Assembly (NCBI GenBank): GCA_016935635.1
Contig: JAFGQP010000252.1
Span: forward strand, 1 to 32,199
Direction of reading: 5' to 3'
DNA: 32,199 bases
From: Sedimentisphaerales bacterium
GTDB lineage: Bacteria; Planctomycetota; Phycisphaerae; Sedimentisphaerales; Anaerohalosphaeraceae
A program made the position numbers and the translations under genes. The notes under the pieces were generated by a model, which searched no databases, was not told where the DNA came from, and saw only the letters and a program-made list of their open reading frames with translations. This document shows, piece by piece, positions 1-30,958 of this stretch (position 1 is the first letter of the stretch; every line of letters begins with the position of its first letter).

Positions 1-514
1 CATGATTGTTAATCGCATAGGCACGTCCGAAGTGACCTCCCAGGGTGCCCAGCGAAATCATTGCATTATTCTGCCATAGAAAGGGGGCGGTTTCATTGAC
101 TGTCGCGGTCTGTGAGCTGCCTGCAACCTGGTCGGATTCATTCAGGGCAAAAGGCATTGAACCGCTTCCGCCCAGCGTCCCCAGCCGGATAACTTGTGTG
201 CCATTCCACAGAAATCCGGCGGAATTGTCGTCACTGCCGACGATACGGCCGGCATTGTTAACGTCATGGTAGAGATATTCAAAACCGCACAGCATCGGCA
301 GTTCGGTCAGGGTTCCATCCTGCCACAGATATGGGGCAGCGGGCATTCCATTGGCCGGACCCGTAATCTGGTTCAGGTCGTTTAAGCCCGCCGGACCGAT
401 GACCATGCCGTTTGGCGGATAGGATGGCAAGAGGATATCGTAATTGGGGGCGGCTGCGGACGGAACAGTCAGACAGCCTGTCAATAGGATAAACAATCCA
501 TAGTTTGTTTTCAT
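1..514 (-). CDS. HAF-repeat-type secreted protein, N-terminal part, runs off left edge (not in the supplied ORF track)
   Basis: Manual reverse translation from ATG at 514: MKTNYGLFILLTGCLTVPSAAAPNYDILLPSYPPNGMVIGPAGLNDLNQITGPANG...RLGTLGGSGSMPFALNESDQVAGSSQT...ISLGTLGGHFGRAYAINNH, open to the edge. It has a signal peptide and repeated LGTLGG...A(L/I)N motifs typical of HAF repeats. A G-rich RBS-like tract (agaaggggg) lies upstream. Confidence 0.8.
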   Translation of the reverse strand, partial: MKTNYGLFILLTGCLTVPSAAAPNYDILLPSYPPNGMVIGPAGLNDLNQITGPANGMPAAPYLWQDGTLTELPMLCGFEYLYHDVNNAGRIVGSDDNSAGFLWNGTQVIRLGTLGGSGSMPFALNESDQVAGSSQTATVNETAPFLWQNNAMISLGTLGGHFGRAYAINNH

Positions 515-539
515 ACACGCCCCCTTCTCTTTTTGTATT

Positions 540-3500
540 TTAAACAGGAACATTCACTTCGCTATTGATCTGCTGCTGAGATTGAATCGCCGAAGCCGGT
601 GTTTTGGACTGGCATTCTGAAAAATAATCTTTGCGGGTAATCCAGGACAGCAGATCCGGATTATTCTGCACGATCCGACGGTGATGGATTTTACCATTCT
701 GATAGGCTTCCCAGACAGCCGATACCACGGGATTGGGCAGTTTGCCGGCGTTGCGAATCTCGGTAAATGAATCAGAAATTCCCTGATTGAACATGCGGGT
801 ACAGAAAAATTCCACCGTAAGATGATCCTTGGGGATACAATGATATACAACTGCTTTTGGCTGATAGATGGTTTTATAGCCCTTCTGTTTGATAGCACGG
901 GACAGGCCGGTTTCGCCATCGCCGCGAAGATGAATCAGTTCTTTGGGCATGGAATCCGGGCGGAATCCGTCGCAGGCGAATAAGACCTCTTTACGAATGG
1001 AGAAATTGCCGCCCCAAACGTAAATTGGATCTACTTCTCGTATCTGTTCTCCCATGTCAATCAATCCCAGTTGACCTACACAGTAACCAAAATTGCCAAC
1101 AGGTTTTACGAATTCTTTAAGCCAATCCGGGGGAGTCTGTTCGTATTCAGGCAGAATTTTACCGCCGACCAGGACCACACCGGTCGTCTCGAAGGTTTCG
1201 ACGACCGACCGAAGCCATAACGGGTCCACCTTGACATCGTCATCCAGATAACAGACATACTGGCCCCTGGCCTCTAATGCACCCCGATGGCGGCCGTTAT
1301 GCAGGCCGGGATTGGGTTCAAATACATACCGCAACTGCGGCAGCGATGTCTGCTGATAGGATTCTGCCACCTGACGCGTGGTATCTGTGGAGCCGTTGTC
1401 AACAATGATAATTTCATACGGCCAGCCGGGATTCTGGAGCGACAACAGAGAATTGAGCACTCGATCCACGGAAGCAGCACGATTGCGCGTAGGGATCACG
1501 ACAGACAAGCGGGGCATATCCGACGAAGGGGCCACGGACTGGATAGCCATTTGAGATGTCCTTTCCAAATAAAAGAGCAAATCGCAATAAATGACCTGGC
1601 CGGGGAAGACCTTGCGAATCTCGCCCAGATTGGTGTAATGAATAATTTTAGAGGTATGATCGGGATTAATCTGTCTGAGGATTCGATCACGGAATGCCTG
1701 GGGGGAATAATGGCGGGAGAAGGGAGCCTTGTATTGGTCATCCCGCCACACCTTCAGGGCGCCATCGTCAAACCGAATTTGACTCTGATCGCAAAGAGAG
1801 CTGGTGATATTATGATAAATAGAATCGACATAGAGCGGAGTAATCACCACCCTGCCTCCGGGCTTCAAGACACGCTGGCTTTCCTGAATAAAGCGGATGT
1901 CAGCGTCACCTTGAAAACACTCGAAGGCACATTGCAAGGACATTCCCTGAATCGACCGGTCGGCAAGCTGGGTATTGCCGGCATCGGCACCGATCTGGAT
2001 TCCATGAATGCCTTTGGGATATGCAATGTCCAGCTTATATGCGTTGATTCCCCGCTTGCGAAGGATTTCAGCGAAATTGCTGGCAGAGCCGGCGACATCG
2101 ATATAATTATCCCCCGGTTTGAGCCTGAGCAGTGCAGCGGACAAATAATGTTCAAGACATTTTTCTATGCAGACATTGCCCATTTTTTGATAGCGGTCGG
2201 TCAATTCCCGGAAGTCTTCCATCCATCGCATGAAATCAGCAACATCAATGGTCTTGTCTTCTATCGGTACATGGAGCGACCTGAATTGGGCAACTAATTG
2301 TTTGACATCCCGATGCTGTTTATGAAAGCTTTGCCGCGTTTGGTCACCCTCTGATACTGCTGTTTTGGGAGTGTTCATCGTTTGTACCGCAGTGCTTATC
2401 GCTGACGGATTCTGACTATTAGCCTTTGCTCGTATTACGTTTTTTGCTTGTTCTATTTCATCGCGAATCAACTGAAGGTCTTTCACGAGGATATCTCGTT
2501 TGGATTGGGGTAGTTTCTGAGCCTGCTTATACAAATCATACTGCATTTTCACCGCAGATTTGACCCTGGGAGCCAGCTTCATCAATTCCTGACGGATAGA
2601 TACAGGAAGCTGCGGGGTTGCAATTGGAATTTTATCACCTTTTTTGCGATCTGTGTTAATATCCTGCAGGAAATATTTGTTTTTCTGACAGATTTCAAAC
2701 AACTCCGTTCCTTCGAAGGGTTTGGGCTCGAAGAAATGAACATCACTGATTCCAGGATATTGTAATGCAAAGTCAAATGAGTTAAAGACATGCTCTACCG
2801 TCTCGCCGGGCAGACCGAGGATAAAGAATGCCACAACATCAACTCCCTGCCGCTGAAGGCCATCCATGCATCTGCGAATATCATCGAGCGTTTCTCCTTT
2901 TTTAATCAGCTTCAGGATATCATCATTGGCACTTTCAATGCCAATTGCGACATATTCCAGAGCATAGTCTTTCATCGCTGCAATCAGTTCTTCATCATAA
3001 TCGTTGGCGCGCATACCGTCCGAACTGATCCCAATTTTCAAATCAAGCCCTTTCAGTTCCCGGCAGAATTGGATAATCCTGTCCCGGGACATAAAAAAAT
3101 TACTATCAGCAAAATTGAACCTCCTATAGCCGTGATCATACCAATAGCGAACCTCCTCAACCATCCTGGCTACGCTGTTAGCCCGCCATTTGCGTCCCAT
3201 CGACTTGTGGGCTCCGCAGAAAATACAGGAAAACGGACAGCCGCGAGACGAAATAAGCACCATCCTGGAACCATAATGACTTATATTCATTTTGGCATAG
3301 CGAGGAAACGGCAGATTATCCAGATTTTCAATTAATTTTCGTGGGGGTGTCAGGTATTTCTGCCCATCACGTCGAAAGGCTATCCCCGTAATTTGGTCCA
3401 AAGGTTTGCCGCTGAGCATATCCAGCATAAAAGGCTCACCTTCATGAAAGACGACCACATCCGCTTCAGGACATTCATCCAATACTGCCTCTTTGATATA

Positions 3501-4736
3501 GGATGCGTGCGGTCCACCAACAATGATCGGAATATCACTTCGAAGCTGTTTGATTCGGCGAATCAGAGCATAATGGCTTTCATAGTCCAGCGACATAAGA
3601 GAAAATCCTATATGGCTGGGAGCAAAAGCGGAAATTTTCTGATGCAAAACCTGCTCAGATTCAACCTGTAAATCACATATTTCATACTCAGCACCGACCT
3701 GTTCCATTATCTGGGCCAGATACCCGATTCCAACCGGCAAGCTCGGATTGGGATACGGTGTTGAAGGATATACAGGCCGGACCAAAAGCGGCCGAAAACT
3801 GAAACGAGAAGATGCCTGGGCGGTCTTTATCACAGCGCGTTCTGTTGTTTCCGGCGCCTGATCGATGATGTATTTACCTGCGATCTGATAAATGATTTTC
3901 AAATCCGACTCGGTCAGATCTTCTTTCCAGGCACCATTTTTGCCTTTGCGGAAGAAACCCTCGGGTTCTTTGGAAACCGGTCCAAATTTATTTTCAAACT
4001 CACCGAATACGGGAATGGGAGTACCGCCGGATGTGGCCGACTTATCGATACGATTGGCATCAATGGCTGCTTTGATCTGTTCGGTACTATAATCCAATTT
4101 CAAAAACTTAAATAGCTGAGCCAGCACCTCTTCGGCCAAAGGCGAGTTTAACTGTTCATAGCGTACTTCATAAAAATGGTCGGCACAGACTTGCCTTTTA
4201 AATTGGTTGACCGTCTCAAGATAACGCACCCATGTTTTGGCGGAGGCTTCCACGCTGGACGGCGCCCAGGATTTGCCCCAGCCGCGTGAGGCGGCCACCA
4301 GGGACGCCACCACATCCCGCACATCCCGCAGAATATAAATAAATCTGGCATCCGGCAGCAGTTCTTTGATTTCATTAAGAAACAAGGCATGGCCGGGGGT
4401 CTTTTCCAGAAAATAGTCGGTTTCGGGCAGACTGCCGATCATCGGGGCCAGCAAATCCATCAAGTAGGATTTCAGAATTCGTTTATAGTCGGATTCCTTA
4501 AAATAGGCAGGCAGCCCTACAGGACGTCCTTCCTTTTTACTCATCAGCAGCTTCCACATCCTGAGCTGATGTCCAACGAACATATCGAACACATTGGATT
4601 CCTGGCCGGAATGAATTTTGGGGTGACTCATCAAAAGCCTCTGGAGCCATGTTGTGCCGCTGCGAGGACACCCTACGACAAAGACCAGATTTTTTCCTGT
4701 ATAGTCCAGCATTTCCATTCCGTTTCGCTGCTCCAT
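540..4736 (-). CDS. Four-domain fusion: sulfotransferase (N-term) - B12-binding-type radical SAM - class I SAM methyltransferase-like - GT2 glycosyltransferase (C-term)
   Basis: One uninterrupted 1398-aa ORF. VVGCPRSGTTWLQRLLMSHP (PAPS-loop type); VGIGYLAQIMEQVGAEYEICDLQ...IVGGPHAS (B12-binding-like fold) then SSRGCPFSCIFCGAH (CxxxCxxC); DNYIDVAGSASNFAEIL...VLKPGGRVVITP (methyltransferase-like); LSVVIPTRNRAASVDRVLNSLL...YEIIIVDNGSTD...CYLDDDVKVDP (GT2). Confidence 0.9.
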   Translation of the reverse strand: MEQRNGMEMLDYTGKNLVFVVGCPRSGTTWLQRLLMSHPKIHSGQESNVFDMFVGHQLRMWKLLMSKKEGRPVGLPAYFKESDYKRILKSYLMDLLAPMIGSLPETDYFLEKTPGHALFLNEIKELLPDARFIYILRDVRDVVASLVAASRGWGKSWAPSSVEASAKTWVRYLETVNQFKRQVCADHFYEVRYEQLNSPLAEEVLAQLFKFLKLDYSTEQIKAAIDANRIDKSATSGGTPIPVFGEFENKFGPVSKEPEGFFRKGKNGAWKEDLTESDLKIIYQIAGKYIIDQAPETTERAVIKTAQASSRFSFRPLLVRPVYPSTPYPNPSLPVGIGYLAQIMEQVGAEYEICDLQVESEQVLHQKISAFAPSHIGFSLMSLDYESHYALIRRIKQLRSDIPIIVGGPHASYIKEAVLDECPEADVVVFHEGEPFMLDMLSGKPLDQITGIAFRRDGQKYLTPPRKLIENLDNLPFPRYAKMNISHYGSRMVLISSRGCPFSCIFCGAHKSMGRKWRANSVARMVEEVRYWYDHGYRRFNFADSNFFMSRDRIIQFCRELKGLDLKIGISSDGMRANDYDEELIAAMKDYALEYVAIGIESANDDILKLIKKGETLDDIRRCMDGLQRQGVDVVAFFILGLPGETVEHVFNSFDFALQYPGISDVHFFEPKPFEGTELFEICQKNKYFLQDINTDRKKGDKIPIATPQLPVSIRQELMKLAPRVKSAVKMQYDLYKQAQKLPQSKRDILVKDLQLIRDEIEQAKNVIRAKANSQNPSAISTAVQTMNTPKTAVSEGDQTRQSFHKQHRDVKQLVAQFRSLHVPIEDKTIDVADFMRWMEDFRELTDRYQKMGNVCIEKCLEHYLSAALLRLKPGDNYIDVAGSASNFAEILRKRGINAYKLDIAYPKGIHGIQIGADAGNTQLADRSIQGMSLQCAFECFQGDADIRFIQESQRVLKPGGRVVITPLYVDSIYHNITSSLCDQSQIRFDDGALKVWRDDQYKAPFSRHYSPQAFRDRILRQINPDHTSKIIHYTNLGEIRKVFPGQVIYCDLLFYLERTSQMAIQSVAPSSDMPRLSVVIPTRNRAASVDRVLNSLLSLQNPGWPYEIIIVDNGSTDTTRQVAESYQQTSLPQLRYVFEPNPGLHNGRHRGALEARGQYVCYLDDDVKVDPLWLRSVVETFETTGVVLVGGKILPEYEQTPPDWLKEFVKPVGNFGYCVGQLGLIDMGEQIREVDPIYVWGGNFSIRKEVLFACDGFRPDSMPKELIHLRGDGETGLSRAIKQKGYKTIYQPKAVVYHCIPKDHLTVEFFCTRMFNQGISDSFTEIRNAGKLPNPVVSAVWEAYQNGKIHHRRIVQNNPDLLSWITRKDYFSECQSKTPASAIQSQQQINSEVNVPV

Positions 4737-4747
4737 GATTGAACTTT

Positions 4748-5182
4748 CTAAAACCGCTGTTTTTCCTGGGGGCCCAGGTACGGGCCCTGTTTGACTTCCA
4801 GCAGGACGGTGTCTTTGAGGCAGCGGAAGCCGTGACCGCCGCTGATCAGCAGCAGGACATCGCCCTGCCGCAGCAGACGGGTGCAGATAAACTCTTTGGC
4901 GTCGGTGTAGAAATCCGCTTCCAACATGCCTTTGCGAACCACCAGGACTTCGGAGGTCCCTTGCAGGTGACGCTCCATCGGGACATGGATATGACGGGGA
5001 ATGATCCCCCCTTCCGGATAAACGACAAATCCCACTTGCTGCTTGACATCGTCGCCGGTGACGAATTCCGTCTCGTCGGGCATCTTTTCAGCACGAATGA
5101 TGGTGGCAATTAACTGCCCATCACATTCGATGCTCTCGACGAGTGTATCATTTTGTACAATCAGATGATCTTTCATACCCAA
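4748..5182 (-). CDS. Cupin-domain protein, possibly sugar-related
   Basis: 144 aa; GGIIPRHIHVPMERHLQGTSEVLVVRKGMLEADFYTD...LLRQGDVLLLISGGHGFRCL, a conserved cupin pattern. Operon-like spacing with neighbours. Confidence 0.7.
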   Translation of the reverse strand: MGMKDHLIVQNDTLVESIECDGQLIATIIRAEKMPDETEFVTGDDVKQQVGFVVYPEGGIIPRHIHVPMERHLQGTSEVLVVRKGMLEADFYTDAKEFICTRLLRQGDVLLLISGGHGFRCLKDTVLLEVKQGPYLGPQEKQRF

Positions 5183-5214
5183 TACGAGCCCTGAATGCTG
5201 TGTTACCGCTTTGA

Positions 5215-5538: not shown

Positions 5539-5556
5539 GTGTATTGTATCCTTTCA

Positions 5557-6180
5557 TCAGGCCGGAATCGGGATGCGATTTTCCGCCTCTTCCAGCAGGT
5601 TTTTGGCATCGGTATTGTTGGGTTCCAGAGCCAATATGTCTTTTAAAATCCGTCGAGCCCTGTCGGGTTGTCTTTCTTTCAGATATAACGTCGCCAGGCA
5701 GAACATCACCGCGGTATCGGCCGGATGGAGATTCAAATAGGTATTGAGGTATTCAATCACGCGGGCAAAGGAGCCCATCTGGCAGGAAACCTGAAACAGC
5801 CCCAGCAGCGCCGTCAGGTTGTCGCCGTCCAGTTCGAGACTTTTCAAATACAAATCGAAGGCATTCTGCCAGTTCTTCTGCTGCTGGGCAATCATGGCCA
5901 GCCCGGCCAGCGCTTTGCTGCATTGGGCATCCAGGCGGAGTGCGACGCGAAAGGCGATTTCGGCATCGGCCAGCTTGCCCTGCTGCAAGGCGATGACACC
6001 CGTGCCCATGTAAGGCCCGGCCTCGTCGGGGGCCAGCATCGCGGCGCGCTCGTAGCAATCCTGAGCCTGGACGTAATCGCCGACCGTGGCGTAACAGTCG
6101 CCCATCTCTTGTACAATGTCGTAATGCTGCGTCCAGCCGTGGTCGGGAACGGCGGTCTGACGGGTCAAGTCCATACACAA
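5557..6180 (-). CDS. TPR-repeat protein
   Basis: 207 aa with tandem TPR units (YVQAQDCYERAAMLAPDEAGPYMGTGVIALQQGKLADAEIAFRVALRLDAQ...). Overlaps the upstream gene by 16 nt. Confidence 0.85.
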   Translation of the reverse strand: MCMDLTRQTAVPDHGWTQHYDIVQEMGDCYATVGDYVQAQDCYERAAMLAPDEAGPYMGTGVIALQQGKLADAEIAFRVALRLDAQCSKALAGLAMIAQQQKNWQNAFDLYLKSLELDGDNLTALLGLFQVSCQMGSFARVIEYLNTYLNLHPADTAVMFCLATLYLKERQPDRARRILKDILALEPNNTDAKNLLEEAENRIPIPA

Positions 6181-7844
6181 GTCTCCACAGGTTGCACAGA
6201 AGCGGTATTTGATTGCGTTTTAGGTATCAGGATATCGGCCGCGGCGGGCAGGTATCCGGTGGATTGTCCATCCAGAATGCCCGCTGCCTGACGATACAGG
6301 CCGGCGGCAATTTGGGGACGGTTATTTTTCTTTTCAGCGCGGGCCTGAATCATCAGGGACGCGACGGTGGGCCGAATCCGGTTGACTTCGGCAATGGTGC
6401 GGGCGGCATGGGCATAGTGTCCTGCCTGAAGCAGCGCGTTGGCCTGACGGGTACGCATCCAGACGGCGTTGCCGTGATGTTCGGCCATGTAATCATAGAC
6501 GCGGGCGGCACGGGTCCACTGGCCGTCCAGTTGGCACATTTCCGCTCCACTGAGCAGATTGTCAAACTGGAAGGGATATTCCTTGAATTCGGGCTTTCGA
6601 ATTGGAATTCCTGCGGCCATGAGGGCCTGCTGCGGGTCGAGGGCCGGATGGCGAGTGATGGCTTTGCGCAAGGTATCGGTATAGATTGCCGCACCAAAAT
6701 GGGTATCGTCGGATTCGACGATCTGGCAGGCCAGATGGGTCTGATGCCCGCTCAGCAGCGGATACAGCGAGCGTTCGACAAACATGGCTTCATCCGGCGG
6801 GATTGAAATACCTGCCGGCAGAAAGACCGTCCAGTCCGCATCCACCTGCTGGAGCATTTTATTGAGGCGTACCGAGAGCGAATCCTCCGGGCGGACTTCC
6901 ACCGGCACAAGATTGGGAACGCAGGACTGGAATCGCTGGCGCTCCTGGGCCGTGAGGGGGACAAAGAGCCGATAGGGATAGAAGCTGTGCGACCAGATAT
7001 CGCGCAGCATCTGTTCCAGCGCCCCATCCAGACGGGAGGCCAGCACGACGATGGCGGAGTCTTCCACACAAGGCCAGGGCTTGGGCGGCCGGGTTGTGCG
7101 GATGGTCAGCAGGTTGCGGATATAATCGTTGACATTCTTACGTCGCTGGACTGAAATTCGGTCGCAATCGCCGACGGGGGCATAATACTCCCCTGTCACA
7201 ATCGGCACGTGGAGAAAATCTGTAAAAAAGCACAATCGGCGGGTCAAGTCCCAGTCGATGAGAACATTGAGCGATTCATTGTACCGCCCGGCCTTATCCA
7301 GCAGGTCGCGTCGATGCATGAGACTGACGTGCAGGGCATGGTTGAACTGGAACATCAGCATGCGGTCAAAATCGCGGCTGATTTCCACATTTTTGGCCAG
7401 CACTCGCCTGCGTCCGTCCGGCAGAACGCGGCAATGGGCCTTGTATAAATCGCCATAGACTACACCATAATCGGGATTCTGCGAAATGGATCGCAATAGA
7501 GTTTCTATGTGATGCGGGAAGAATTTATCGTCGTCACCCAGATAACAGACGTAGTCCCCTTTGGTCCGGGCCAGCGCTTCGTTAAAAGAATACGGCAGGC
7601 CCCGGTTCTGGTCGCGGTCGATGAATGTCAGACGCGAATCGTTAAATTGACTGACCACATCGCGGACGGGCAATCCGCCATCGCGTGTCAGGATGATTTC
7701 AAAATTGGGCCAGGTCTGCCGAAAGATACTGTCCAGCGCTTCGGCCAGGTACGCAGGCCGGTTGTAGGTGCTGATCAGCACCGTAACCAGGGGGCCGCAA
7801 CCGGGAACTCTCGGACGCTGGAATGTCTTTTTATCGGTTATCAC
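6165..7844 (-). CDS. GT2 glycosyltransferase with second GT2-like region and C-terminal TPR
   Basis: 559 aa; PLVTVLISTYNRPAYLAEALDSIFRQTWPNFEIILTRDGG...DYVCYLGDDDKFFPHH; second GT-like region (SAIVVLASRLDGALEQMLRDIW...ADWTVFLPAGISIPPDEAM); C-terminal TPR-like helices. Confidence 0.85.
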   Translation of the reverse strand: MITDKKTFQRPRVPGCGPLVTVLISTYNRPAYLAEALDSIFRQTWPNFEIILTRDGGLPVRDVVSQFNDSRLTFIDRDQNRGLPYSFNEALARTKGDYVCYLGDDDKFFPHHIETLLRSISQNPDYGVVYGDLYKAHCRVLPDGRRRVLAKNVEISRDFDRMLMFQFNHALHVSLMHRRDLLDKAGRYNESLNVLIDWDLTRRLCFFTDFLHVPIVTGEYYAPVGDCDRISVQRRKNVNDYIRNLLTIRTTRPPKPWPCVEDSAIVVLASRLDGALEQMLRDIWSHSFYPYRLFVPLTAQERQRFQSCVPNLVPVEVRPEDSLSVRLNKMLQQVDADWTVFLPAGISIPPDEAMFVERSLYPLLSGHQTHLACQIVESDDTHFGAAIYTDTLRKAITRHPALDPQQALMAAGIPIRKPEFKEYPFQFDNLLSGAEMCQLDGQWTRAARVYDYMAEHHGNAVWMRTRQANALLQAGHYAHAARTIAEVNRIRPTVASLMIQARAEKKNNRPQIAAGLYRQAAGILDGQSTGYLPAAADILIPKTQSNTASVQPVETCVWT

Positions 7845-8587
7845 TTTAGTTTAAAATCCATCGACATAATTACAGACAGAATCACATCGGGTGATAATTC
7901 GGCTGCGGCGACGATACCTGAAAATTCGTTGTCGGAGTCATTCTGATTACTATCATCGACTAAAATCACCGGGATATGCACCGCCACGGCCATGGCGGCA
8001 TAGCCTTTTTCAGTCGTTATCAGCATGTCGCACTGGCTCAACACGGAGGCCGATTCACGGGCCATCAGTTTTCCGGTCAGATTCTTGCCGGTGCTGCATT
8101 CGGTTCGGCGTTCGGCCAGGAGGACAAAGCCTCCGTGAAGCTGCTGGTCGATGGCCTGACAAATCTGGTTCCATTGTCCAAGCCGCTGCTCGGTCAGCAT
8201 CGGCTCCAAGCCCAGTGCCAGACGCGGTCGCTGAATGGAGCCAATTCCGAAACGCTGGGTACGAAGCGTATCAAAGCCGTTCAGATTAATCTGGGGCTGG
8301 TCGTCAGGCACATTGACACCAATCTGCTGAGCCAACGCGGAGACCCGCTTGCGGATGCTCATGGGGCCGGAGGGACTTTCGAGGCGGATGATTTTATGGT
8401 ACTGCCCTGCAGTGACTTCAAGTTCATCATACGCGACGGAAGCAATGGCCGGATGGCCGGTGTATAAATCCGCATGTTCGTGGCAGACGGTCAGACGGCA
8501 TTGCGGGCCGTATTTTTGCGCAATAACCCGCAGGACCGGCTCTGCACACACGGCTTCTGTAATATCGCCCTCAACCACGACAAGCAC
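7841..8587 (-). CDS. GT9 (heptosyltransferase)-like protein, short; start uncertain
   Basis: 248 aa; VLVVVEGDITEAVCAEPVLRVIAQKYGPQCRLTVCHE N-terminus and SVLSQCDMLITTEKGYAAMAVAVHIPVILV C-terminal motif resemble GT9. The frame stays open upstream of the GTG at 8587 toward the end of the preceding gene. ATGA overlap with the downstream gene. Confidence 0.6.
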   Translation of the reverse strand: MLVVVEGDITEAVCAEPVLRVIAQKYGPQCRLTVCHEHADLYTGHPAIASVAYDELEVTAGQYHKIIRLESPSGPMSIRKRVSALAQQIGVNVPDDQPQINLNGFDTLRTQRFGIGSIQRPRLALGLEPMLTEQRLGQWNQICQAIDQQLHGGFVLLAERRTECSTGKNLTGKLMARESASVLSQCDMLITTEKGYAAMAVAVHIPVILVDDSNQNDSDNEFSGIVAAAELSPDVILSVIMSMDFKLK

Positions 8588-8661
8588 CGGACCGTTGATT
8601 TCTTCACGGGCAGACGGCCGGCCATCCGCTGGGGTTGGGTCAGCGGACTCCGTTGTCGAGT

Positions 8662-10416
8662 CTATCGGACAAAAGGGACAGAGAAATTCTCCTGCGGAGT
8701 TTTGGATTGTTCCTGTGCTTCGTTAAGCATATCCCGCAACCGCAGGGATGCCTTGAGGGCATTTTCGGCGATCTCACTAATGCTGCGGCGGTCCGTCTGC
8801 GGCGTTTCGGGCTTTTCGGGCACAAGTGACTGCGGAGCAGCGGGCATTACAGGGGCCGCTGGCGGAGTCCAGGTCTGCTGCGGCTGAGCCGGCATCATCG
8901 GCGGCTGCATCGGCATTGCAGGGGCCTGTGTATATGGCCGCGGAGCCACCGGGGCAGCAGGCATCGCGGGAGCGGCAGCAGCAGGAGTATGACTTGATTC
9001 CGCCGGATGGCTCGTCGCGCGGGACAGTTGAATCTGGCGCTCCAATTTGGATAAGGTTGTATTCAGGGTTTTATAGAAATTACCCTGCGAATAACGGGCT
9101 TCAATCCATTGACGATACTGGCCGGGCTGATACTCGCCATTTTGAATCACCGCACAGAATTCCTCGGCAATCATAAACACATACCGCGAATCCATCCATT
9201 CTTCGGCGCCGGCAAAGCCATGCACCACCGGCTTGACGCCGCAGGCCATAGCCGCCCATACATGGTGTATTCCGGCCGGACTGATGGAGCCATGAACAAA
9301 ATACTGCTTATCACGCAGCCAGCTTTGCAGGTTGGACACGGGACCATCAAAGAAGACCACGCCTTCCAGATTCATCCGCGAGACGGCATTGCGGCAGTAG
9401 CGTTCAATGGCTTTATCCTGAAATTCCCCGGCCAGATACAGACGATAATCCCGGTCGAGATAATTAAGTTTCTGCATACACTGAATCAGGAACATCGGAT
9501 TGTTGCAGGCATTAAAAGGCCCTGCCGCAGCAATACGTTTGCCCCGGCCGCGCTGAGTGAAGGTCCAATCCTGAATATCCAGCGGCTCATCGGTCATCTG
9601 GACATGAGTTTTTTTGTGGATATCGGGTATTTGTTCGGTCAGCATGTCGGCCTGTTCAATGGTTCCACATACCAGCACCTGGTCGATGGTGTTCCAGCAA
9701 ATTGATTTGAGAACCGGGTTATAGACATCCTGGGCCGACAAAATAGCGATTGTCTTCCCTGCGGGCTTGTTCATCGAAAGCTGCCGCAGCATCTGACCCG
9801 CACCAACGATAATACACAAACTTTCACTGGTCTGAGTCAACTGCCTTGGATCCGCTACAGTCAACTGGGTCCTGAAACGCAGGTTCATATAGTCATAGAT
9901 TTGACGGACAGCCGGACCGTCTGTATCTGCGGCCACCGTCACTACTGGACGTTTGGAACGAATGATTTCGAACATCGGGTGCAGAATTTCCTGCTCAGGA
10001 GCCTGTCGGAGCGAACGCAGCAGGCATTCCATGGCTCCGCCTAATGCTTCGCGGTTTAAAAAGACATTGGCTGCCCGATTCAGCACATCCACATTCAGAA
10101 CGCCATGCTGTTCCATGGCATCGAACAGAGCCGCCGCTTCAGCTGGATATCCTTCCTGGAGATAAGTCTCACACAAATTCCATAGAATCTGACCCAATAT
10201 ATCTCCTTCTGCACAGCCGCGAGCCTTCTCCAGCATCTTAATCGCCTCTTGGCCGCGATTCATGCAGAACAAGATCGTTCCAGCGTCGTTCAATGCTTCA
10301 GAGTCATTGGGATTAGTTTGCAGATACGTCCGGATCAATCGTAATGCCTGTTCATGCTGTCCGGCTTCAGCTAACGACATCGCTTGCTGATACATCGGCG
10401 ATTTAGTTTGACTCAT
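8662..10416 (-). CDS. TPR + GT-B (GT4-like) protein with Pro/Ala-rich C-terminal tail
   Basis: 584 aa; N-terminal TPR (AMSLAEAGQHEQALRLIRTYLQTNPNDSEALNDAGTILFCMNRGQEAIKMLEKA), GT-B-like C-terminal half (RIAAAGPFNACNNPMFLIQCMQKL...DYRLYLAGEF...GVVFFDGPVSNLQSWL...AAMACGVKPVVHGF), then a PAP-rich tail. Confidence 0.8.
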   Translation of the reverse strand: MSQTKSPMYQQAMSLAEAGQHEQALRLIRTYLQTNPNDSEALNDAGTILFCMNRGQEAIKMLEKARGCAEGDILGQILWNLCETYLQEGYPAEAAALFDAMEQHGVLNVDVLNRAANVFLNREALGGAMECLLRSLRQAPEQEILHPMFEIIRSKRPVVTVAADTDGPAVRQIYDYMNLRFRTQLTVADPRQLTQTSESLCIIVGAGQMLRQLSMNKPAGKTIAILSAQDVYNPVLKSICWNTIDQVLVCGTIEQADMLTEQIPDIHKKTHVQMTDEPLDIQDWTFTQRGRGKRIAAAGPFNACNNPMFLIQCMQKLNYLDRDYRLYLAGEFQDKAIERYCRNAVSRMNLEGVVFFDGPVSNLQSWLRDKQYFVHGSISPAGIHHVWAAMACGVKPVVHGFAGAEEWMDSRYVFMIAEEFCAVIQNGEYQPGQYRQWIEARYSQGNFYKTLNTTLSKLERQIQLSRATSHPAESSHTPAAAAPAMPAAPVAPRPYTQAPAMPMQPPMMPAQPQQTWTPPAAPVMPAAPQSLVPEKPETPQTDRRSISEIAENALKASLRLRDMLNEAQEQSKTPQENFSVPFVR

Positions 10417-10474
10417 AATTTATCTCCATTTTCAGTCCAGTTTACCAATGACAGACTATGTCGCAAAAATACAG

Positions 10475-10490
10475 TGCAAATCACGTGCCG
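10475..10490 (-). promoter_or_regulatory. Sigma-54 (-24/-12) promoter upstream of the glycosyltransferase/fusion operon
   Basis: Minus-strand CGGCACGTGATTTGCA matches YGGCACG-N4-TTGCW; predicted start gives a leader of about 48 nt before the ATG at 10416. Confidence 0.75.
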
Positions 10491-10674
10491 AAAGGAAAAT
10501 ACCGTGTTTTCAGGGCTTTAAACCCGCATTACTCGCATAGAACATGCAGTTTGTATAAATATCAAACAGGAAATTTTCTCTGAAACTCTGGAAGGCTGAC
10601 TGGTTGTGATCAATTCTCTGCCGACAGAGGCATCTTGGGTATTGCCTGGCAGGAAAAAACCGACTTAATGCGTC

Positions 10675-12120
10675 TTACTTTTCAGAAATGGTAGTTGACT
10701 GACAAGGACGGCACGGATTGGATTCAAAGGAGGCGAACACTTCATTAACCCGGGCAAGTTGCCGCGTCAGCGGATATCGCCGCTCCACAAACTCCCGATA
10801 TTCCAGGGAGTTATAGTCGTTCGACAGGATATGCCGGCAGAATTCATCAGGAGTATTAAACAAATACCGGTCACCGTAGATTTCGCGAGAACCGGGGAAA
10901 TTGTGAATGACAGGGCGAATTCCGCAGGCCATCGCTTCCAGACAGCCCATTCCCTGGCTTTCAATACAACTGGTTACTGCCAGATAATGCTTGTCGGCCA
11001 GCCAGGAACGAACATCGCTCTGCCAGCCGTCAAAAACGATATGGTCCCGCAAACCAAGCTGGTCAATCTGATAATCGATATAATGTTCCATCAGCAGGTC
11101 CGATTGGTCTCCGGCAATAAACAGCCTGTAGTCCGGATCCTTTTGACACAGATGCGCCATGCATTGCAGCAGGAGCATCGGGTTTTTTACCATCCGCAGG
11201 GATGCAACAAATGCAATATTTTTACCCGGTCGTCGAGATGCAAAGTTGACTTTATCCAGGTTAACACCGTTGGGGATGGTTGCGATTGCCACGCGCTGCT
11301 GGATATCGGGCACCCATTTCTGCAGGGCTTTGAGGACAAAACTATTACCCACCGTGATGAGCAAATCCACATTTTCCCAGCGAATCTGCCGGGGCATTGG
11401 CATATAGGCCTCATAACGATGCAGGCGAATGATAGTGCGGCACACTTTGGGCATTGCCGAGCCTAATTGAGCCAAATTGGTGCACCATTCGAACCACGAC
11501 ATATCGCTCCACTGCATCAAGTCGAACATCTGCCTGGTATCGGTACCATCAAAGACACGCACCTGATACCGGATTCGTGCATAGTCCAGGATATCCCTGA
11601 GAAAGGTGTCGCCGTCGGCACCACAGAAAAACGCGATTTTAGCCCGGCGATGACGAACCTGCTCCTGCATTTTGGCCAACACTTCGCTATCCGGCAATCG
11701 CCTTGAGGCGCGGGTCACCGTCTCCATCGACGCGGCCCAGTCCTGCTGCTGAGCAAATCCAGAGACAATCTGCTCGACCAGAGATTCTTCCAGAAGGCCT
11801 TCGGAAGCCAGCGGTTCGAGCATCTGTACCGCACATTCAGGATGACCTGAAACCAGCCAGGTACGAGCCATATCCAAAGGAATCTGCCGGGGGCAATCCG
11901 GAAACTGCCTTGCCCGCTGAAAATGCTCTAATGCTTCATCATAACGATTCATCGCTGATAACAGCACGCCCGCATCCCGCCAGACGGTTCCGGAGGCAGG
12001 ACGCGCCTGAATGGAATGCTGAATCATCCGGAGCGTTTCATCCGTGCGGCCTTCGGCAATCAGCCGGCCGGCCTGGCGAATCAGCGAAGAATCAGAATTG
12101 TGGAATGAGGGTAAATTCAT
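10675..12120 (-). CDS. TPR + GT4 glycosyltransferase
   Basis: 481 aa; TPR N-terminus (RLIAEGRTDETLRMIQHSIQARPASGTVWRDAGVLLSAMNRYDEALEHFQRA) and GT4 core with intact E-x7-E (SCIESQGMGCLEAMACGIRPVIHNFPGSREI). 12 nt downstream of flgL. Confidence 0.85.
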   Translation of the reverse strand: MNLPSFHNSDSSLIRQAGRLIAEGRTDETLRMIQHSIQARPASGTVWRDAGVLLSAMNRYDEALEHFQRARQFPDCPRQIPLDMARTWLVSGHPECAVQMLEPLASEGLLEESLVEQIVSGFAQQQDWAASMETVTRASRRLPDSEVLAKMQEQVRHRRAKIAFFCGADGDTFLRDILDYARIRYQVRVFDGTDTRQMFDLMQWSDMSWFEWCTNLAQLGSAMPKVCRTIIRLHRYEAYMPMPRQIRWENVDLLITVGNSFVLKALQKWVPDIQQRVAIATIPNGVNLDKVNFASRRPGKNIAFVASLRMVKNPMLLLQCMAHLCQKDPDYRLFIAGDQSDLLMEHYIDYQIDQLGLRDHIVFDGWQSDVRSWLADKHYLAVTSCIESQGMGCLEAMACGIRPVIHNFPGSREIYGDRYLFNTPDEFCRHILSNDYNSLEYREFVERRYPLTRQLARVNEVFASFESNPCRPCQSTTISEK

Positions 12121-12132
12121 CGGGTCTGCTGA

Positions 12133-13320
12133 TTATTCCATAAAATCCAGAAATGACATGGAAAACATTTTGGATGCCACCTTCAGCGACATCTGATAAA
12201 GCACTTCATAACGTGCCAGATCGATGGCAACCTGTGAAATATCGGCGTCCTGCATGCGGCTGATGTCCTCTTCGGTGTTGAGCTTCATTTCTTCGATGCT
12301 GTCTCTCAGGGCAGTCAGGGTCTGCACACGACCACCGACAATTGGAAAAGACCGCGTCAGTTTCTGTTCCACCACCTTCATTTCATTGACGACATCGTTG
12401 AGCATCTCTTTCAACTGTGCTTCCGGAATACTCTCTACATTTTTAAGCAGGTCACGGGCACTGATCAGGCTATTGAAGATGTCATAGGTCCCCGACATAC
12501 GAATAGGTTCTGTACCAGCCTGTGTCAAGGTGGTTGTATCCAGATACAAGACCTCGCCGGTCTGTGAATTAACTACCGGCAAATTCGTTTCTGTTCCGGC
12601 GGCATTGACCCAGCTTTGCCCGCCGTCGATGGACAGCTGCCAACTGCCGGCACTGCCCTGCACCTGAAGATAGATATCGCCGCGGGCCGTGCTGGTGCCA
12701 GTGCCGATCTGAATGCCGGTTTGTCCGTAAAATACGGGAGTATCCCGGTTGTCGGGAGAAAACAAAGTCGAACCCACCAGTACCGCCGACATCTCAACCC
12801 CATTGGCCACAGTGACTTTCTTTTCCTCATTGCTTCCCTGATAGTTGACGCGGGTTACTTCGCCCGAAGCATTGCGCTCCATCGTATAGGGAACCGCAGA
12901 ATCTTTGGCGCCGGCGAAAAGGCTTTGTCCCAGCCGCTGGGTATTGGCTAATGAGACCAGTTGCTCCAGAGCATTGTTTAAATCCGCAGCCAGCGTCTGA
13001 CGAAGCTGGTCGCCGGTCGTGCCGGACATGATCGAAGTCAGCGATTCTCTCGCACTGGCCAGTTCACTGCTCATGCTCTGCAGCACTGAAGAGCTTAATT
13101 CCAGCACACTGGTCACTTCATCCAGACTTTCGATGTACTGGGTTTTACTGCGGTTGTCACTTAAGAGTCCAAGAATCTGGTTGGTCAGGCTGGGATTGTC
13201 TGAAACCCGGTTTACATCCTGTCCGGTACCAGCTCTTTCCTGAAGCTGCGCCAGTTTTGATGAATGATAATTGATGGCCCAGCTTGAACTTTTATAAATT
13301 GCATCCAGTGAATAACTCAT
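12133..13320 (-). CDS. flgL: Flagellar hook-associated protein FlgL
   Basis: Flagellin-like N-terminus (NYHSSKLAQLQERAGTGQDVNRVSDNPS) and C-terminal QDADISQVAIDLARYEVLYQMSLKVASKMFSMSFLDFM; follows flgK. Confidence 0.93.
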   Translation of the reverse strand: MSYSLDAIYKSSSWAINYHSSKLAQLQERAGTGQDVNRVSDNPSLTNQILGLLSDNRSKTQYIESLDEVTSVLELSSSVLQSMSSELASARESLTSIMSGTTGDQLRQTLAADLNNALEQLVSLANTQRLGQSLFAGAKDSAVPYTMERNASGEVTRVNYQGSNEEKKVTVANGVEMSAVLVGSTLFSPDNRDTPVFYGQTGIQIGTGTSTARGDIYLQVQGSAGSWQLSIDGGQSWVNAAGTETNLPVVNSQTGEVLYLDTTTLTQAGTEPIRMSGTYDIFNSLISARDLLKNVESIPEAQLKEMLNDVVNEMKVVEQKLTRSFPIVGGRVQTLTALRDSIEEMKLNTEEDISRMQDADISQVAIDLARYEVLYQMSLKVASKMFSMSFLDFME

Positions 13321-13338
13321 GTATTTTCCTGTATGACA

Positions 13339-15366
13339 CTACGAGATTATGGTAATCAGGTTTTTGAGTGAATCCGAGATGGTATTCAGGTATTTCGACA
13401 TCGCCTGAAACAGGCGTTCATAAACCATCATTTGCATCGCCTGGTCGTTGATATCCACTCCGCTGACCTCATCGCGCTGTGATTCCAGGCTCTTTTTGAT
13501 TCCCTGAGCATTATCATACTGCATCTGAGTAAAAGAAATGGAATTACCGACACTGACTGTCATATTGCGGTAATATTCCTTGGTGGAAAATCCTCCCAGA
13601 GCAGAAGATGCCGTATCACCCAACTGGGCAATGGCCACAGCATTGGCATTATCACTTTGTTCCACACTGCGGGACACGGCAATTCGGCTGGCAGAACGAA
13701 CAATGTCATCGGCCAGGGTGATCGTCGAGGCATCATTGCCGGCAAAAAAACAATTCAGTCCCGCCGCAGCCAGAAAACCGGTAGTGTCTGAGTTGGCCAG
13801 CGCATTAATTGTGAATTCATCTCCGTCATTCAGGTAACCGGGACTGACACCATTTGCACTCAGACTGACTTTAATTCCGTTTTCAACCAGCATTTCCGTC
13901 CCGCCCTGATACCCATCGCCGATATTAAGCGAGGCGATCGTGGCGCCGGAACCGTCCTGAATGACCAGATCCATCACGCCGGTACCAATGGCACAGGTCT
14001 GGCCCGGCGGGCTGGTGTTGACGGTGCAGGTATAATCCTGATTGACTGAGCCGGTATAAAGACCGGATATCTGAATTGCCGGCGCCGCCTGATTGGCCGC
14101 TGCGCCTGCCCCGGCCAGCGGATTGGGACTATACCCTGTCGGCTCCAGGGTTACGCCCGGCAGAAAATCAAATTCATAACCTTCATTTGCCACAATCTGG
14201 AGTTTTCCGGTATGCACTCCCGTATTGTCTTCCAGTCCTGGAATCAGGGCAAGATCATCGGCAACCGACTGCAGCGTGCTGCTGGCATCAATGGTTACGG
14301 CATGGCGCGTTACAGAGCCATCCGGAGCGATCACCCGAACATACATGGTCCCCGCATTGACGGGAGGGTCGAATTCGGTCACACTGGACTGCCCCATGGT
14401 CCAGCCGGTCAGGCTGGTGAAAGAACCGTCAGACCCAACACCCTGAACGTGAATTTTATTGGTTTCGGAAACAATCGTCTGGGCCAGAGCGTTCAACTGA
14501 TCCAGGATATCGCTCAACAGGGTATTGTGCAGGGAGAATAATCCGCCTAGGCTGCCTCCGGTTACCGTATCCTGAACCTGTTCGGTGCCGCTGATGGCAA
14601 TCACCATATCATAATGACTCTCATCCTGCTGAAGATAGACCTCAATCGGGGTGGTATTCGATCCAACCACAAGGGGAATATCCGAAAGAACAACATCCAC
14701 CAACCCATATTCTTTTTTGATGACTTCCACTCCTGCCAGCCGGTTCAGGTCGATCACAAGCTTGTCACGCTGATCCATCATATTGCTGGCATCAAAACCG
14801 CGTACCTGCTGGGTGTAAATAATCTTATTCATATTGGCAATCTGGGCAGACAGCTCATTAATTTCCAAAACCGTGGACTGAGCCTCGGTGTAAGTACTGT
14901 CCTGAAGATTATTGACCACGGATGCGACATTACGGAATTGATTGGTCAGCGTCTGTGCCGCTGACACCACGGAGCTTTGCAGGGTAATATCCGTGGGCCG
15001 TAAAGACAAATCATAAAAGGCGTTATAAAAATTGTCCATCGCCGTACTGATACCCGGCGTTGACAGTTCCGCCAGCGCACTTTCAATACTGCGAAGCGAC
15101 TCCATCTGGCGGTTCAACGAGGACATGGATGCGTCCTGCGTGAGAATCTGGTCTTCAATCAGCGTGTTGATTCTACGAACAATGCCGGTAAAATCAACGC
15201 CCTGCCCCAGTAGAAATCCGCCGGTGTAGGATGCATCGGCCGGACGAAGATCAATGTCCTGACGATGATAGCCTTCGGTCGCGGCATTGGCAATATTGTT
15301 GCCGATCACATCCAGCGCCCGCTGAGCCGTCCGTATTCCACTGATTCCTATTTCATATCCAGCCAT
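13339..15366 (-). CDS. flgK: Flagellar hook-associated protein FlgK
   Basis: EIGISGIRTAQRALDVIGNNIANAATEGYHRQDIDLRPA N-terminus; SGVDINDQAMQMMVYERLFQAMSKYLNTISDSLKNLI C-terminus. Confidence 0.96.
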   Translation of the reverse strand: MAGYEIGISGIRTAQRALDVIGNNIANAATEGYHRQDIDLRPADASYTGGFLLGQGVDFTGIVRRINTLIEDQILTQDASMSSLNRQMESLRSIESALAELSTPGISTAMDNFYNAFYDLSLRPTDITLQSSVVSAAQTLTNQFRNVASVVNNLQDSTYTEAQSTVLEINELSAQIANMNKIIYTQQVRGFDASNMMDQRDKLVIDLNRLAGVEVIKKEYGLVDVVLSDIPLVVGSNTTPIEVYLQQDESHYDMVIAISGTEQVQDTVTGGSLGGLFSLHNTLLSDILDQLNALAQTIVSETNKIHVQGVGSDGSFTSLTGWTMGQSSVTEFDPPVNAGTMYVRVIAPDGSVTRHAVTIDASSTLQSVADDLALIPGLEDNTGVHTGKLQIVANEGYEFDFLPGVTLEPTGYSPNPLAGAGAAANQAAPAIQISGLYTGSVNQDYTCTVNTSPPGQTCAIGTGVMDLVIQDGSGATIASLNIGDGYQGGTEMLVENGIKVSLSANGVSPGYLNDGDEFTINALANSDTTGFLAAAGLNCFFAGNDASTITLADDIVRSASRIAVSRSVEQSDNANAVAIAQLGDTASSALGGFSTKEYYRNMTVSVGNSISFTQMQYDNAQGIKKSLESQRDEVSGVDINDQAMQMMVYERLFQAMSKYLNTISDSLKNLITIIS

Positions 15367-15374
15367 AATGTTCC

Positions 15375-15896
15375 CTACATTCGCATACTGATAATCGGCT
15401 GATGGACCTCACGCCGGGTCTGCCCATAAGAGGTATAGGTCAGGGTCTGATTCCGTTTCCCGATAATGCCCTCCAGAATTGTCCGATTCAGGCGTTCACA
15501 TTCCCGTAAAAGCTGTTCGGTGGCACAATGCTCCAGAGATAAGCGGTTCATCAATTCCTTCAGAAGCCGCTGTTTAGGGAGCAAGGCGGTTTTTTGTTCC
15601 GGCATGAGATACTGCCCGACGCGCGTCAGATTTACTTCCTCCGGTCGGCATTCCAGAATACGGGAAAACGCATGGCATATCTGCTGTTGACGGCTATCGG
15701 CCTGCTCACGCTGTGCAGCCGCAAGCGGCAATATCTCCTGCATCTGCCGCAACGCCTGCTCATCCCTACGGATGACCGCAGCGCGCAGCTGATTTAACTG
15801 TTCCAGCATCTGGCGAACAGATTGAGCACGTTCATCCAGAAACGCCATCAGCTCCTCGGCACTCTGACTCAGATTGGATCGCTGGATCTCGGTCAT
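15375..15896 (-). CDS. FlgN-like flagellar chaperone
   Basis: 173-aa helical protein between flgJ and flgK, the usual flgN position (LMAFLDERAQSVRQMLEQLNQLRAAVIRRDEQALRQMQEILPLAAAQREQ). Confidence 0.65.
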   Translation of the reverse strand: MTEIQRSNLSQSAEELMAFLDERAQSVRQMLEQLNQLRAAVIRRDEQALRQMQEILPLAAAQREQADSRQQQICHAFSRILECRPEEVNLTRVGQYLMPEQKTALLPKQRLLKELMNRLSLEHCATEQLLRECERLNRTILEGIIGKRNQTLTYTSYGQTRREVHQPIISMRM

Positions 15897-16264
15897 ACAC
15901 CCTCATTCAGACCTGCCGCCGCATCGGTCGGCAGATTCATCTGCTGCGCTATCTGCTGATAGATAGACTTCCATAATCCCACCCCTCCCTGCTCACTGAC
16001 CAGATCGCTCATCTGCGACCAGTACAGGCTCTGAATTTGCTCGCCGCCAGCATCTTCGGATTCCTCGTCCTCCTCTGTATCCATTTGTTCAATATTCTGC
16101 TGAGCCTGCTTGAACATCTGGTGCAGAAGCACTCCTTCAAATTGTCTGGCAACTTCCTGGAGTTTTTCCCCGGCCGGATTCTGTGATGCCGTCCGCTGGA
16201 TATCCTGCAGGCCGGCAGGCTCAGGCAATTGACCGGGATTCGATATTGCAAATAAATCCATCAT
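15893..16264 (-). CDS. flgJ: Rod-binding protein (FlgJ N-terminal domain only)
   Basis: EVARQFEGVLLHQMFKQAQQNI...LYWSQMSDLVSEQGGVGLWKSIYQQI matches the rod-binding domain; no peptidoglycan hydrolase domain in 123 aa. Confidence 0.85.
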   Translation of the reverse strand: MMDLFAISNPGQLPEPAGLQDIQRTASQNPAGEKLQEVARQFEGVLLHQMFKQAQQNIEQMDTEEDEESEDAGGEQIQSLYWSQMSDLVSEQGGVGLWKSIYQQIAQQMNLPTDAAAGLNEGV

Positions 16265-16276
16265 CTTTATCCTCTT

Positions 16277-17389
16277 TTACATCATTTCCAGCCTGGCTTG
16301 CAATGCCCCGGCCCGCTTTAAGGCATCAAAAATGGCAATCAGGTCACGCGGAGAGGCCCCAATGGAATTCAGCGCCTGGGCCAGTTCCTCGACGGTTACC
16401 GTTTTAGGCAGGGCAATCAGGGCGCCTTCCTTTTCTTCAATCGCCAGCGAGGTCTCATCCACAACAGCCGTTGTGGCCCCTTCCGTAAACGGCGTGGTCG
16501 GCTGCGATACATTTTTCTGCTCTTTGACTTTGACGACGAGGCTGCCCTGGGCAACCGCTGTTTCCTTGATCGTGACATTGCCGCCGACGACAATCGTGCC
16601 GGTGCGCTCATTAATGACAACTACCGCCGGCACATCCACTTCGACATCCGTTTGAACGATACCGTCCAAAAATGTAATTTCCTGTCCGGGTGCCACATCA
16701 TCCGGCACAAAAATACGGACTGAGCCGGGATCTTCGGCAATGGCCATGCCGGGATATTGATCTGATACCGCCTTTCGAATGCGTTCTGCAGTTGTAAAAT
16801 TCGCCTGTCGAAGGCTCAGCACAATACTGCGTTTGCTGCCAATAACCTGCACAAATTCGGACAGTTCAGAGCGTTCCACAATGGCCCCGCTTGGAATACG
16901 CCCGACAGTGGGATGGTTTTTTGAGGCTTTGGTCCCGGTTTTACCTTCCACCGTCCATGAGGACGTTGAAATCGAGGCCACCCGCGCCACCGCATAGACT
17001 TCTCCATCAAGCCCTTTCAATTCCGTCGCCAGCAGCATTCCACCCTGAAGACTTTTGGCGTCGCCCAGCGACGAAATCGTAATATCAATTACCCCCCCTT
17101 CCCGATCCCACGGTCCCAGCTCTGTAGTCACCATAACCAGCGCAATATTCGATGATCGCAGCAAAGCCGGCGTGAAGGTTGTATCTCCTTCGCGTCTGAG
17201 CAGGCTGGTCAAAAGCTGTGCACTGGGAAGGGCGCTGTCGCCGGTACCATTCAATCCAACCACCAGCCCGGTTCCCATCAGCGGGTTTCCGCGAACTCCC
17301 TGAATATCGCAGATATCCCCAATCCGAGCAGCCCGGGCAGCCGGCAGAAAACAGGCTACCAGCAGTAGTAATCGTGCCATCGTTCTCAT
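16277..17389 (-). CDS. flgI: Flagellar P-ring protein FlgI
   Basis: Signal peptide; ARIGDICDIQGVRGNPLMGTGLVVGLNGTGDS...; VVINERTGTIVVGGNVTI. Confidence 0.96.
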   Translation of the reverse strand: MRTMARLLLLVACFLPAARAARIGDICDIQGVRGNPLMGTGLVVGLNGTGDSALPSAQLLTSLLRREGDTTFTPALLRSSNIALVMVTTELGPWDREGGVIDITISSLGDAKSLQGGMLLATELKGLDGEVYAVARVASISTSSWTVEGKTGTKASKNHPTVGRIPSGAIVERSELSEFVQVIGSKRSIVLSLRQANFTTAERIRKAVSDQYPGMAIAEDPGSVRIFVPDDVAPGQEITFLDGIVQTDVEVDVPAVVVINERTGTIVVGGNVTIKETAVAQGSLVVKVKEQKNVSQPTTPFTEGATTAVVDETSLAIEEKEGALIALPKTVTVEELAQALNSIGASPRDLIAIFDALKRAGALQARLEMM

Positions 17390-17412
17390 AAAATCCTCTC
17401 GTACAGCCCTGT

Positions 17413-18042
17413 TTAGAACGGCCAGATGAAGTCCAGAAACTTACCCAGCCAGCCGGGATTATTATAACTTTTCGTGGGGCCTTCACTGAGGGCCACCAGT
17501 GAAAAATCCGCAATCTGTTCGCTGCGAACCGTATTATCATACGAAATATCGCTCGGACGAACCACACCGCTGACCTGAATGGTCTGTTTGTCGCCGCTGA
17601 TATCCCGGGTACGGGTGCCGATGACCACCAGGTTGCCGTTGGGATGAATATCCTGAACCACAACGGTAATACGGTCCTCAATGCTGCGCTCGTCCTTATA
17701 ATCCGCCTTGCCGTTGACAGACTTGCTCGATGATGCACCCAGGGATACATCCGGGATACTCGGAATCACATGTTCGATTTTATTGTCATCTCCATTGATC
17801 AGCAGCGAATTGGACGTACTCTTCTGAAGATCCGTTTTAACTTTATTATCAACCTTATGATCTTCATTGATGACGACGGTCAGCAGATCCCCCACCTGGA
17901 TCGCTTTGTCATCGGCATAGAGAGCCTTGCTGGTGGCGCTTTTTTTGGCCCAGATTGAGCCTGCCTGACAGACCGATGACAGCACCAGAGCTGTACTGAA
18001 CAACAGAATATAGCGTTGACATTTCATACGGATTCCTTTCAT
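17413..18042 (-). CDS. flgH: Flagellar L-ring protein FlgH (start may be 18027)
   Basis: SIWAKKSATSKALYADDKAIQVGDLLTVVINEDHKVDNK...ISGDKQTIQVSGVVRPSDISYDNTVRSEQIADFSL. Confidence 0.93.
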   Translation of the reverse strand: MKGIRMKCQRYILLFSTALVLSSVCQAGSIWAKKSATSKALYADDKAIQVGDLLTVVINEDHKVDNKVKTDLQKSTSNSLLINGDDNKIEHVIPSIPDVSLGASSSKSVNGKADYKDERSIEDRITVVVQDIHPNGNLVVIGTRTRDISGDKQTIQVSGVVRPSDISYDNTVRSEQIADFSLVALSEGPTKSYNNPGWLGKFLDFIWPF

Positions 18043-19034: not shown

Positions 19035-19043
19035 CTCCTCGGA

Positions 19044-19826: not shown

Positions 19827-19836
19827 TGTAAATCTC

Positions 19837-21779: not shown

Positions 21780-21801
21780 CCGTCTAATGGTCCATATACA
21801 T

Positions 21802-23532: not shown

Positions 23533-23570
23533 AGTGCTACTCCTTTATATCTTACTGAATTACGCTTTGG

Positions 23571-30929: not shown

Positions 30930-30958
30930 AGAAAATTGGCTTCGGTGCCGCAGCCGGA

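Follow-up and report, generated by a model that had tools for sequence, protein, structure and literature searches.

Large transferases and methyltransferases are known from flagellin glycosylation islands. In the viosamine island of Pseudomonas syringae, a DegT-type aminotransferase (VioA), a methyltransferase (VioM), and a transferase of 1173 amino acids (aa; VioT) decorate flagellin, and deletion of vioM leaves one methyl fewer per glycan (PMC3927599). Haloarchaeal (Halobacterium) flagellins carry sulfated glycans (PMC2952790), a precedent for a sulfated glycan on a flagellin-type filament, though this is an archaeal N-glycan and the filament is unrelated. Literature linking flagellin glycosylation with a radical SAM enzyme or a sulfotransferase was searched for and nothing relevant was found, which is weak evidence as few subscription journals were covered, and the comparative flagellin-island literature examined mentions neither fusions nor a sulfotransferase. 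Against this background, a fused gene (P0001) is described from a 32,199-nucleotide stretch of DNA (the window) of an uncultured Sedimentisphaerales bacterium (Planctomycetota; GenBank assembly GCA_016935635.1, contig JAFGQP010000252.1), in which a sulfotransferase, a B12-binding/radical SAM module, a methyltransferase-like domain, and a GT2 glycosyltransferase are encoded by a single open reading frame (ORF). The surrounding island resembles the flagellin glycosylation (viosamine) islands of P. syringae and P. aeruginosa in its aminotransferase, methyltransferase, and very large transferase, whereas radical SAM and sulfotransferase are missing among the seven listed ORFs of the viosamine island (PMC3927599). 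A cobalamin radical SAM domain and a sulfotransferase fused to a glycosyltransferase would add C-methyl or deoxy sugars and sulfate, chemistry that is undescribed for bacteria in the flagellin-glycosylation literature found.

The product of the fused gene is probably a single glycan-tailoring enzyme with several domains, part of a flagellar glycosylation island; as judged from sequence, the gene is best read as one state of a slot in that island whose content varies. It is this slot, the parts of which are unfused or otherwise fused elsewhere, that is the new element. The window is the whole of contig C231, one of 381 contigs in a metagenome-type assembly (3.8 Mb, 87.6% complete), and contains no ambiguous bases (N). 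A first-pass annotation made from the letters alone had described positions 540–4736 as an uninterrupted 1398-aa ORF; the coordinates are exact, and the strand, which it did not give, is minus, with 1398 codons closed by one stop in the reverse complement. A plus-strand reading was ruled out by a frame crowded with stops, and a chance ORF by five domain matches, the fully open 1398 codons, and the lack of Ns. All of the modules that had been named were matched by Pfam above cut-off (four domains far above, the methyltransferase narrowly), and all of the named motifs were located: the 5′ and 3′ phosphosulfate-binding loops of the sulfotransferase, for 3′-phosphoadenosine 5′-phosphosulfate (PAPS) (CPRSGTTW and RDVRDVVAS), the CxxxCxxC of the radical SAM core (CPFSCIFC; C500/C504/C507), motif I of the methyltransferase-like domain (DVAGSASN, at aa 880), and the DXD-type metal site of the GT2 (LDDD, at aa 1164). 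The guanine-cytosine (GC) fraction of the gene is 0.44–0.51 per segment, except for a 20-codon junction at 0.55, while the cupin and TPR genes are higher (0.53–0.57).

The evidence for a variable slot comes from a genome of the same genus (G002), in which one contig (C106) is colinear with window positions 4750–19393 at 88.4% nucleotide identity and another (C316) is colinear with positions 1–1496 at 76% (L031, 6730–8206). The C106 match breaks off no more than a few bases from where the cupin gene ends, after which that contig holds a phosphatase-like gene until the contig end, and the C316 match ends at the N-terminus of the GT2, such that the outer breakpoints correspond to the limits of genes or domains. 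Between cupin and GT2, the gene content of G002 differs from that of the window. On the C316 side there are sugar genes and a 927-aa ORF composed of an unassigned N-terminal part, a Methyltransf_24 domain, a relative of the window's methyltransferase (49% identity), and a Methyltransf_23 domain, with a frame broken at a 2-N assembly gap ahead of a GT2 that is 78% identical to the window's. As C106 and C316 are separate contigs, we infer their pairing as the two sides of one slot from the window. That slot content varies while both flanks stay colinear indicates that the variation probably serves diversification of a surface (flagellar) glycan, and suggests that an exchange of modules reshapes the sugar coat of the flagellum. 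More speculatively, and on balance doubtfully, the slot may recombine glycan-tailoring domains into single long chains, each closing with the same GT2, a small assembly line that would rewrite the flagellar glycan, including its sulfate and radical SAM chemistry, between species; phages that bind flagella would be one example of the pressure behind this. Whether domain exchange generates diversity in the flagellar glycan can be tested directly on these paired loci from one genus, given their colinear flanks. Also on the island-end contig C316 (~9205–14823; L079 region) is an open frame of 2657 aa in which GT2 is matched at least four separate times.

In a comparison set of 392 genomes of the phylum and 59 relatives, the same modules occurred as separate genes or in different fusions. 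A gene row in one genome (G327, L040) consists of a radical SAM gene (37% identity to the window's, and its closest relative among the 392 phylum genomes), a GT2 (43%), a methyltransferase (42%), a cupin (42%), a DegT, and an MT25, each of them separate. In a Pontiellaceae genome (L009), flgK and flgL, with a gene between them that by its translation resembles a sigma-54 factor, are followed by a GT2 (42%), a cupin (44%), a methyltransferase (59%), a DegT, and an MT25. Both islands have the GT2, DVAG-type methyltransferase, cupin, DegT, and MT25 families in common with the window's island system, but their modules are individual genes while those of the window form one chain. The first-pass statement that such modules are usually separate proteins in glycan clusters is borne out for these gene families by L040 and L009. 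In the fetched stretches of these two islands, no homologue of the window's sulfotransferase was present; across the 392 phylum genomes, sulfotransferase relatives are ORFs of ≤480 aa and radical SAM relatives are ORFs of ≤719 aa. A further genome (G107) has an island on the same contig as flgE–flgL, within ~30 kb (L039, L073), and an 890-aa fusion of an MptE-like domain, Methyltransf_24, and the methyltransferase. The exact domain order, of which the first-pass annotation knew no description, is indeed unseen elsewhere in the searched genomes, but other fusions of the same methyltransferase exist (G002, G107), so the order in the window is probably just one arrangement, specific to its lineage. 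The contigs of the G107 and G327 islands also carry giant glycosyltransferase ORFs (1814, 1190, 1362, and 1140 aa; L074 6039–19500, L071 5074–8496), and long glycosyltransferase fusions seem common in such loci.

In the proposed scheme, the C-terminal GT2 would most likely transfer a nucleotide-activated sugar onto flagellin or a flagellin-linked glycan. This sugar would plausibly be an amino-deoxy sugar, made by the island's own DegT aminotransferase. The methyltransferase-like domain would modify it by O/N-methylation, the cobalamin radical SAM domain by C-methylation or deoxygenation, and the N-terminal sulfotransferase would cap it with sulfate, with fusion into one chain coupling the tailoring steps. 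For this scheme, the domains with their motifs, the flagellar setting, the recurrent partner genes of the island, and the differing slot are shown; we infer the substrate, the chemistry of the methyl and radical domains, the order of action, the acceptor, and the working state of all four domains. The DegT and MT25 of the window's own genome (94% and 91% identity to those after the GT2 in G002) lie on a 4.1-kb contig (C269) that ends inside DegT, and on these grounds C269 probably continues C231.

The B12-binding domain is followed by the radical SAM core with a CxxxCxxC that is invariant in all four aligned sequences, the architecture of cobalamin-dependent radical SAM enzymes; the DxHxxG motif was absent from the B12-binding fold in the alignment. 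The predicted structure of this part (predicted local distance difference test [pLDDT] score, 76) has MgmA, OxsB, AprD4, TsrM, CysS, and TokK as its best fold matches, all of which share the fold and CxxxCxxC with the module, which here is embedded in a larger chain. No named functional subfamily (e.g., HpnJ, ApyD, BchE) was reached (best NCBIfam score, 153; cut-off, 578), and as no NCBIfam functional model came near its cut-off, both methylase and dehydratase are possible and the domain could dehydrate rather than methylate. A serious, if less probable, alternative is that the module is an AprD4-like sugar dehydratase/deoxygenase and the enzyme makes a deoxy sugar: AprD4, a sugar diol dehydratase, is the first solved relative by sequence (1.6e-22) and fourth by fold, and its substrate is an amino-sugar (paromamine). 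However, cobalamin methylases (MgmA, TsrM, CysS, TokK) make up most of the remaining best matches by fold, and the NCBIfam matches are scattered across many functions, each far below its cut-off.

The remaining domains hold the points that weigh against a flagellar glycan-tailoring enzyme working with its full complement, to which may be added that no second copy of the exact fusion was found in the 59 relatives or the 392 phylum genomes. For the sulfotransferase, the Pfam matches are strong (Sulfotransfer_3 at aa 18–217, 117.5 bits against a cut-off of 27; Sulfotransfer_1, 63.5 bits), and the candidate catalytic residues E46 and K112 line up with a conserved Glu and Lys of human tyrosylprotein sulfotransferase 1 (TPST1; phmmer, 1.4e-11). 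The domain has its PAPS loops and these aligned residues in common with human TPST1/2, from which it differs in its low identity and in being joined to glycan enzymes. Sulfate activation of the CysD/CysN type is encoded in the window's genome; neither a Sat-family ATP-sulfurylase nor an intact adenosine 5′-phosphosulfate (APS) kinase was found in that 87.6%-complete assembly. The sole APS-kinase-like sequence found is a partial domain, the C-terminal tail of a CysN-type protein (L080 1297–3204, C120), with TGPADQSGEN at the expected position of the P-loop, which is missing; to judge by its residues, the tail may be a non-catalytic remnant. PAPS supply is therefore unproven, though in an incomplete assembly the absent APS kinase lowers the case for sulfation and does not refute it.

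The methyltransferase-like domain has a Methyltransf_11 match (aa 885–965) of 22.5 bits in the full protein and 27.2 bits when scanned alone, against a cut-off of 21.2, and its model (pLDDT 82) matches class I methyltransferases (Foldseek E ~1e-6 to 1e-5; template modelling [TM] score, 0.3–0.5). Searching solved structures with the methyltransferase profile gave only two insignificant matches. The canonical motif I (GxGxG) is absent, and S-adenosylmethionine binding is on that account unproven. Seven relatives align to the domain at 38–57% identity, and in 8/8 aligned members, the window's included, DVA or DIA plus a non-canonical loop replaces the DxGxG motif I, which marks the odd motif as a conserved family trait and not decay; many residues are invariant, and three of the eight members sit within fused ORFs. 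The family has only weak generic Pfam matches, and the one standalone member tried had no NCBIfam match. Its matches occur in 6 of the 392 phylum genomes (counting the window's own), and a plasmid or viral origin was rejected, with zero matches in plasmids and zero in viral contigs. The DVAGSAS family is a good marker for locating such islands, though it is not exclusively flagellar, as the stretches fetched around relatives at two loci (L038, L042) show no flagellar genes nearby. At L038 (9093–11220; G075), the DVAG-type methyltransferase directly precedes a gene with a rhomboid-protease domain.

These observations leave some room for the ORF to be real but with idle domains, a sulfotransferase without a donor and/or a methyltransferase-like scaffold, in which case the protein would in effect be a GT2 plus a single functional tailoring domain. 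The missing Sat, the P-loop-less APS-kinase match, and the deviating motif I favour this reading, which is nonetheless rather unlikely: the PAPS loops and TPST-aligned residues are intact, an APS kinase that would complete CysD/CysN-type activation may lie in the unassembled 12%, and the retention of the motif across the eight members, together with the invariant residues, argues for a selected function of the methyltransferase-like domain. The first-pass proposal of a single protein that attaches a sugar and both methylates and sulfates it is accordingly not established, given the AprD4 relative, the atypical S-adenosylmethionine loop, and the lack of an intact APS kinase.

The GT2 match (aa 1078–1250) scores 106.9 bits against a cut-off of 23.3, and RGDGET at aa 1271 accompanies the metal site. 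That the same modules act on an acceptor other than flagellin (an exopolysaccharide, a lipopolysaccharide, or another surface glycan), with the flagellar adjacency incidental, is unlikely. In its favour are the methyltransferase relatives at L038, L042, and L010, the last beside an NDP-sugar epimerase-like gene and a DegT, in fetched stretches without flagellar genes, and scores of the GT2 against exopolysaccharide transferases, though these lie far under their cut-offs. On the other side, the glycosyltransferase genes of the window (540–12120) adjoin the flagellar cluster flgL…FlgD, and islands in two other lineages (Pontiellaceae L009, G107) lie beside or near flgK/flgL, which upholds the flagellar link first suggested for the gene. 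The fused copy in G107 also has an MptE-like domain; Maf proteins, which act in flagellin glycosylation, belong to that family.

At the junction of the methyltransferase-like domain and the GT2, where there is almost no linker, codon 1063 is an in-frame ATG preceded by a Shine-Dalgarno-like stretch (−5.6 kcal/mol) that is modest and resembles those of several neighbouring genes, and the GT2 might additionally be made alone from this start. It is very unlikely that the continuous chain is an artefact of the assembly or the sequence, or that the GT2 is instead made separately: though the 381-contig assembly, the single known copy, the near-zero linker, and a start as strong as real ones nearby speak for it, an open frame without Ns would require three in-frame accidents, G002 has a long methyltransferase ORF heading to the same GT2, G107 has another fusion, and the outer breakpoints coincide with gene or domain ends.

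Table 1. Features of the window, with positions on the contig and the basis of each assignment.
Feature	Position	Strand	Basis or remark
Fused gene P0001	540..4736	-	Single 1398-aa ORF: sulfotransferase, B12-binding/radical SAM, linker, methyltransferase-like, GT2
Sulfotransferase domain, aa 18-284	3885..4685	-	Pfam Sulfotransfer_3 and Sulfotransfer_1; phmmer to TPST1
B12-binding fold, aa 333-434	3435..3740	-	Pfam 70.7 bits; alignment
Radical SAM core, aa 495-656	2769..3254	-	Pfam 96.8 bits; alignment; model
Linker, aa 741-800	2337..2516	-	Joins radical SAM and methyltransferase modules; GC 0.439, lowest among ORF segments measured
Methyltransferase-like domain, aa 800-1062	1551..2339	-	Methyltransf_11; eight-member alignment; model
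GT2 glycosyltransferase, aa 1063-1398	543..1550	-	Pfam; 78% identity to same-genus (G002) copy
Repeat-rich secreted protein, start of gene	2..553	-	Colinear with same gene in G002; leaves contig
Cupin	4748..5176	-	Immediately upstream of fused gene; stop 11 nt before its ATG
TPR protein, GT2+TPR, unassigned gene, two TPR+GT4 proteins	5557..12120	-	Pfam; fill span from fused gene to flgL
Flagellar block flgL, flgK, FlgN, rod-binding, flgI, flgH, flgA, flgG/F, PilZ, flgE, FlgD	12133..23981	-	

Among the neighbours of the fused gene (Table 1), the cupin is a conserved island member (42–44% identity to the cupins of L009, L039, and L040), with a WbuC match that is weak and below cut-off. Flagellar names were assigned by Pfam for FlgN, the rod-binding protein, PilZ, and FlgD and by cross-genome matches, and the others were read from translations. 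Divergent from the flagellar operon is a sigma-54-dependent regulator (24397–25803), likely a flagellar regulator. Towards the end of the window, a BNR/sialidase-like repeat protein (29808–30977) lies beside a second, secreted repeat protein, the C-terminus of which is dockerin-like (30959–32182).

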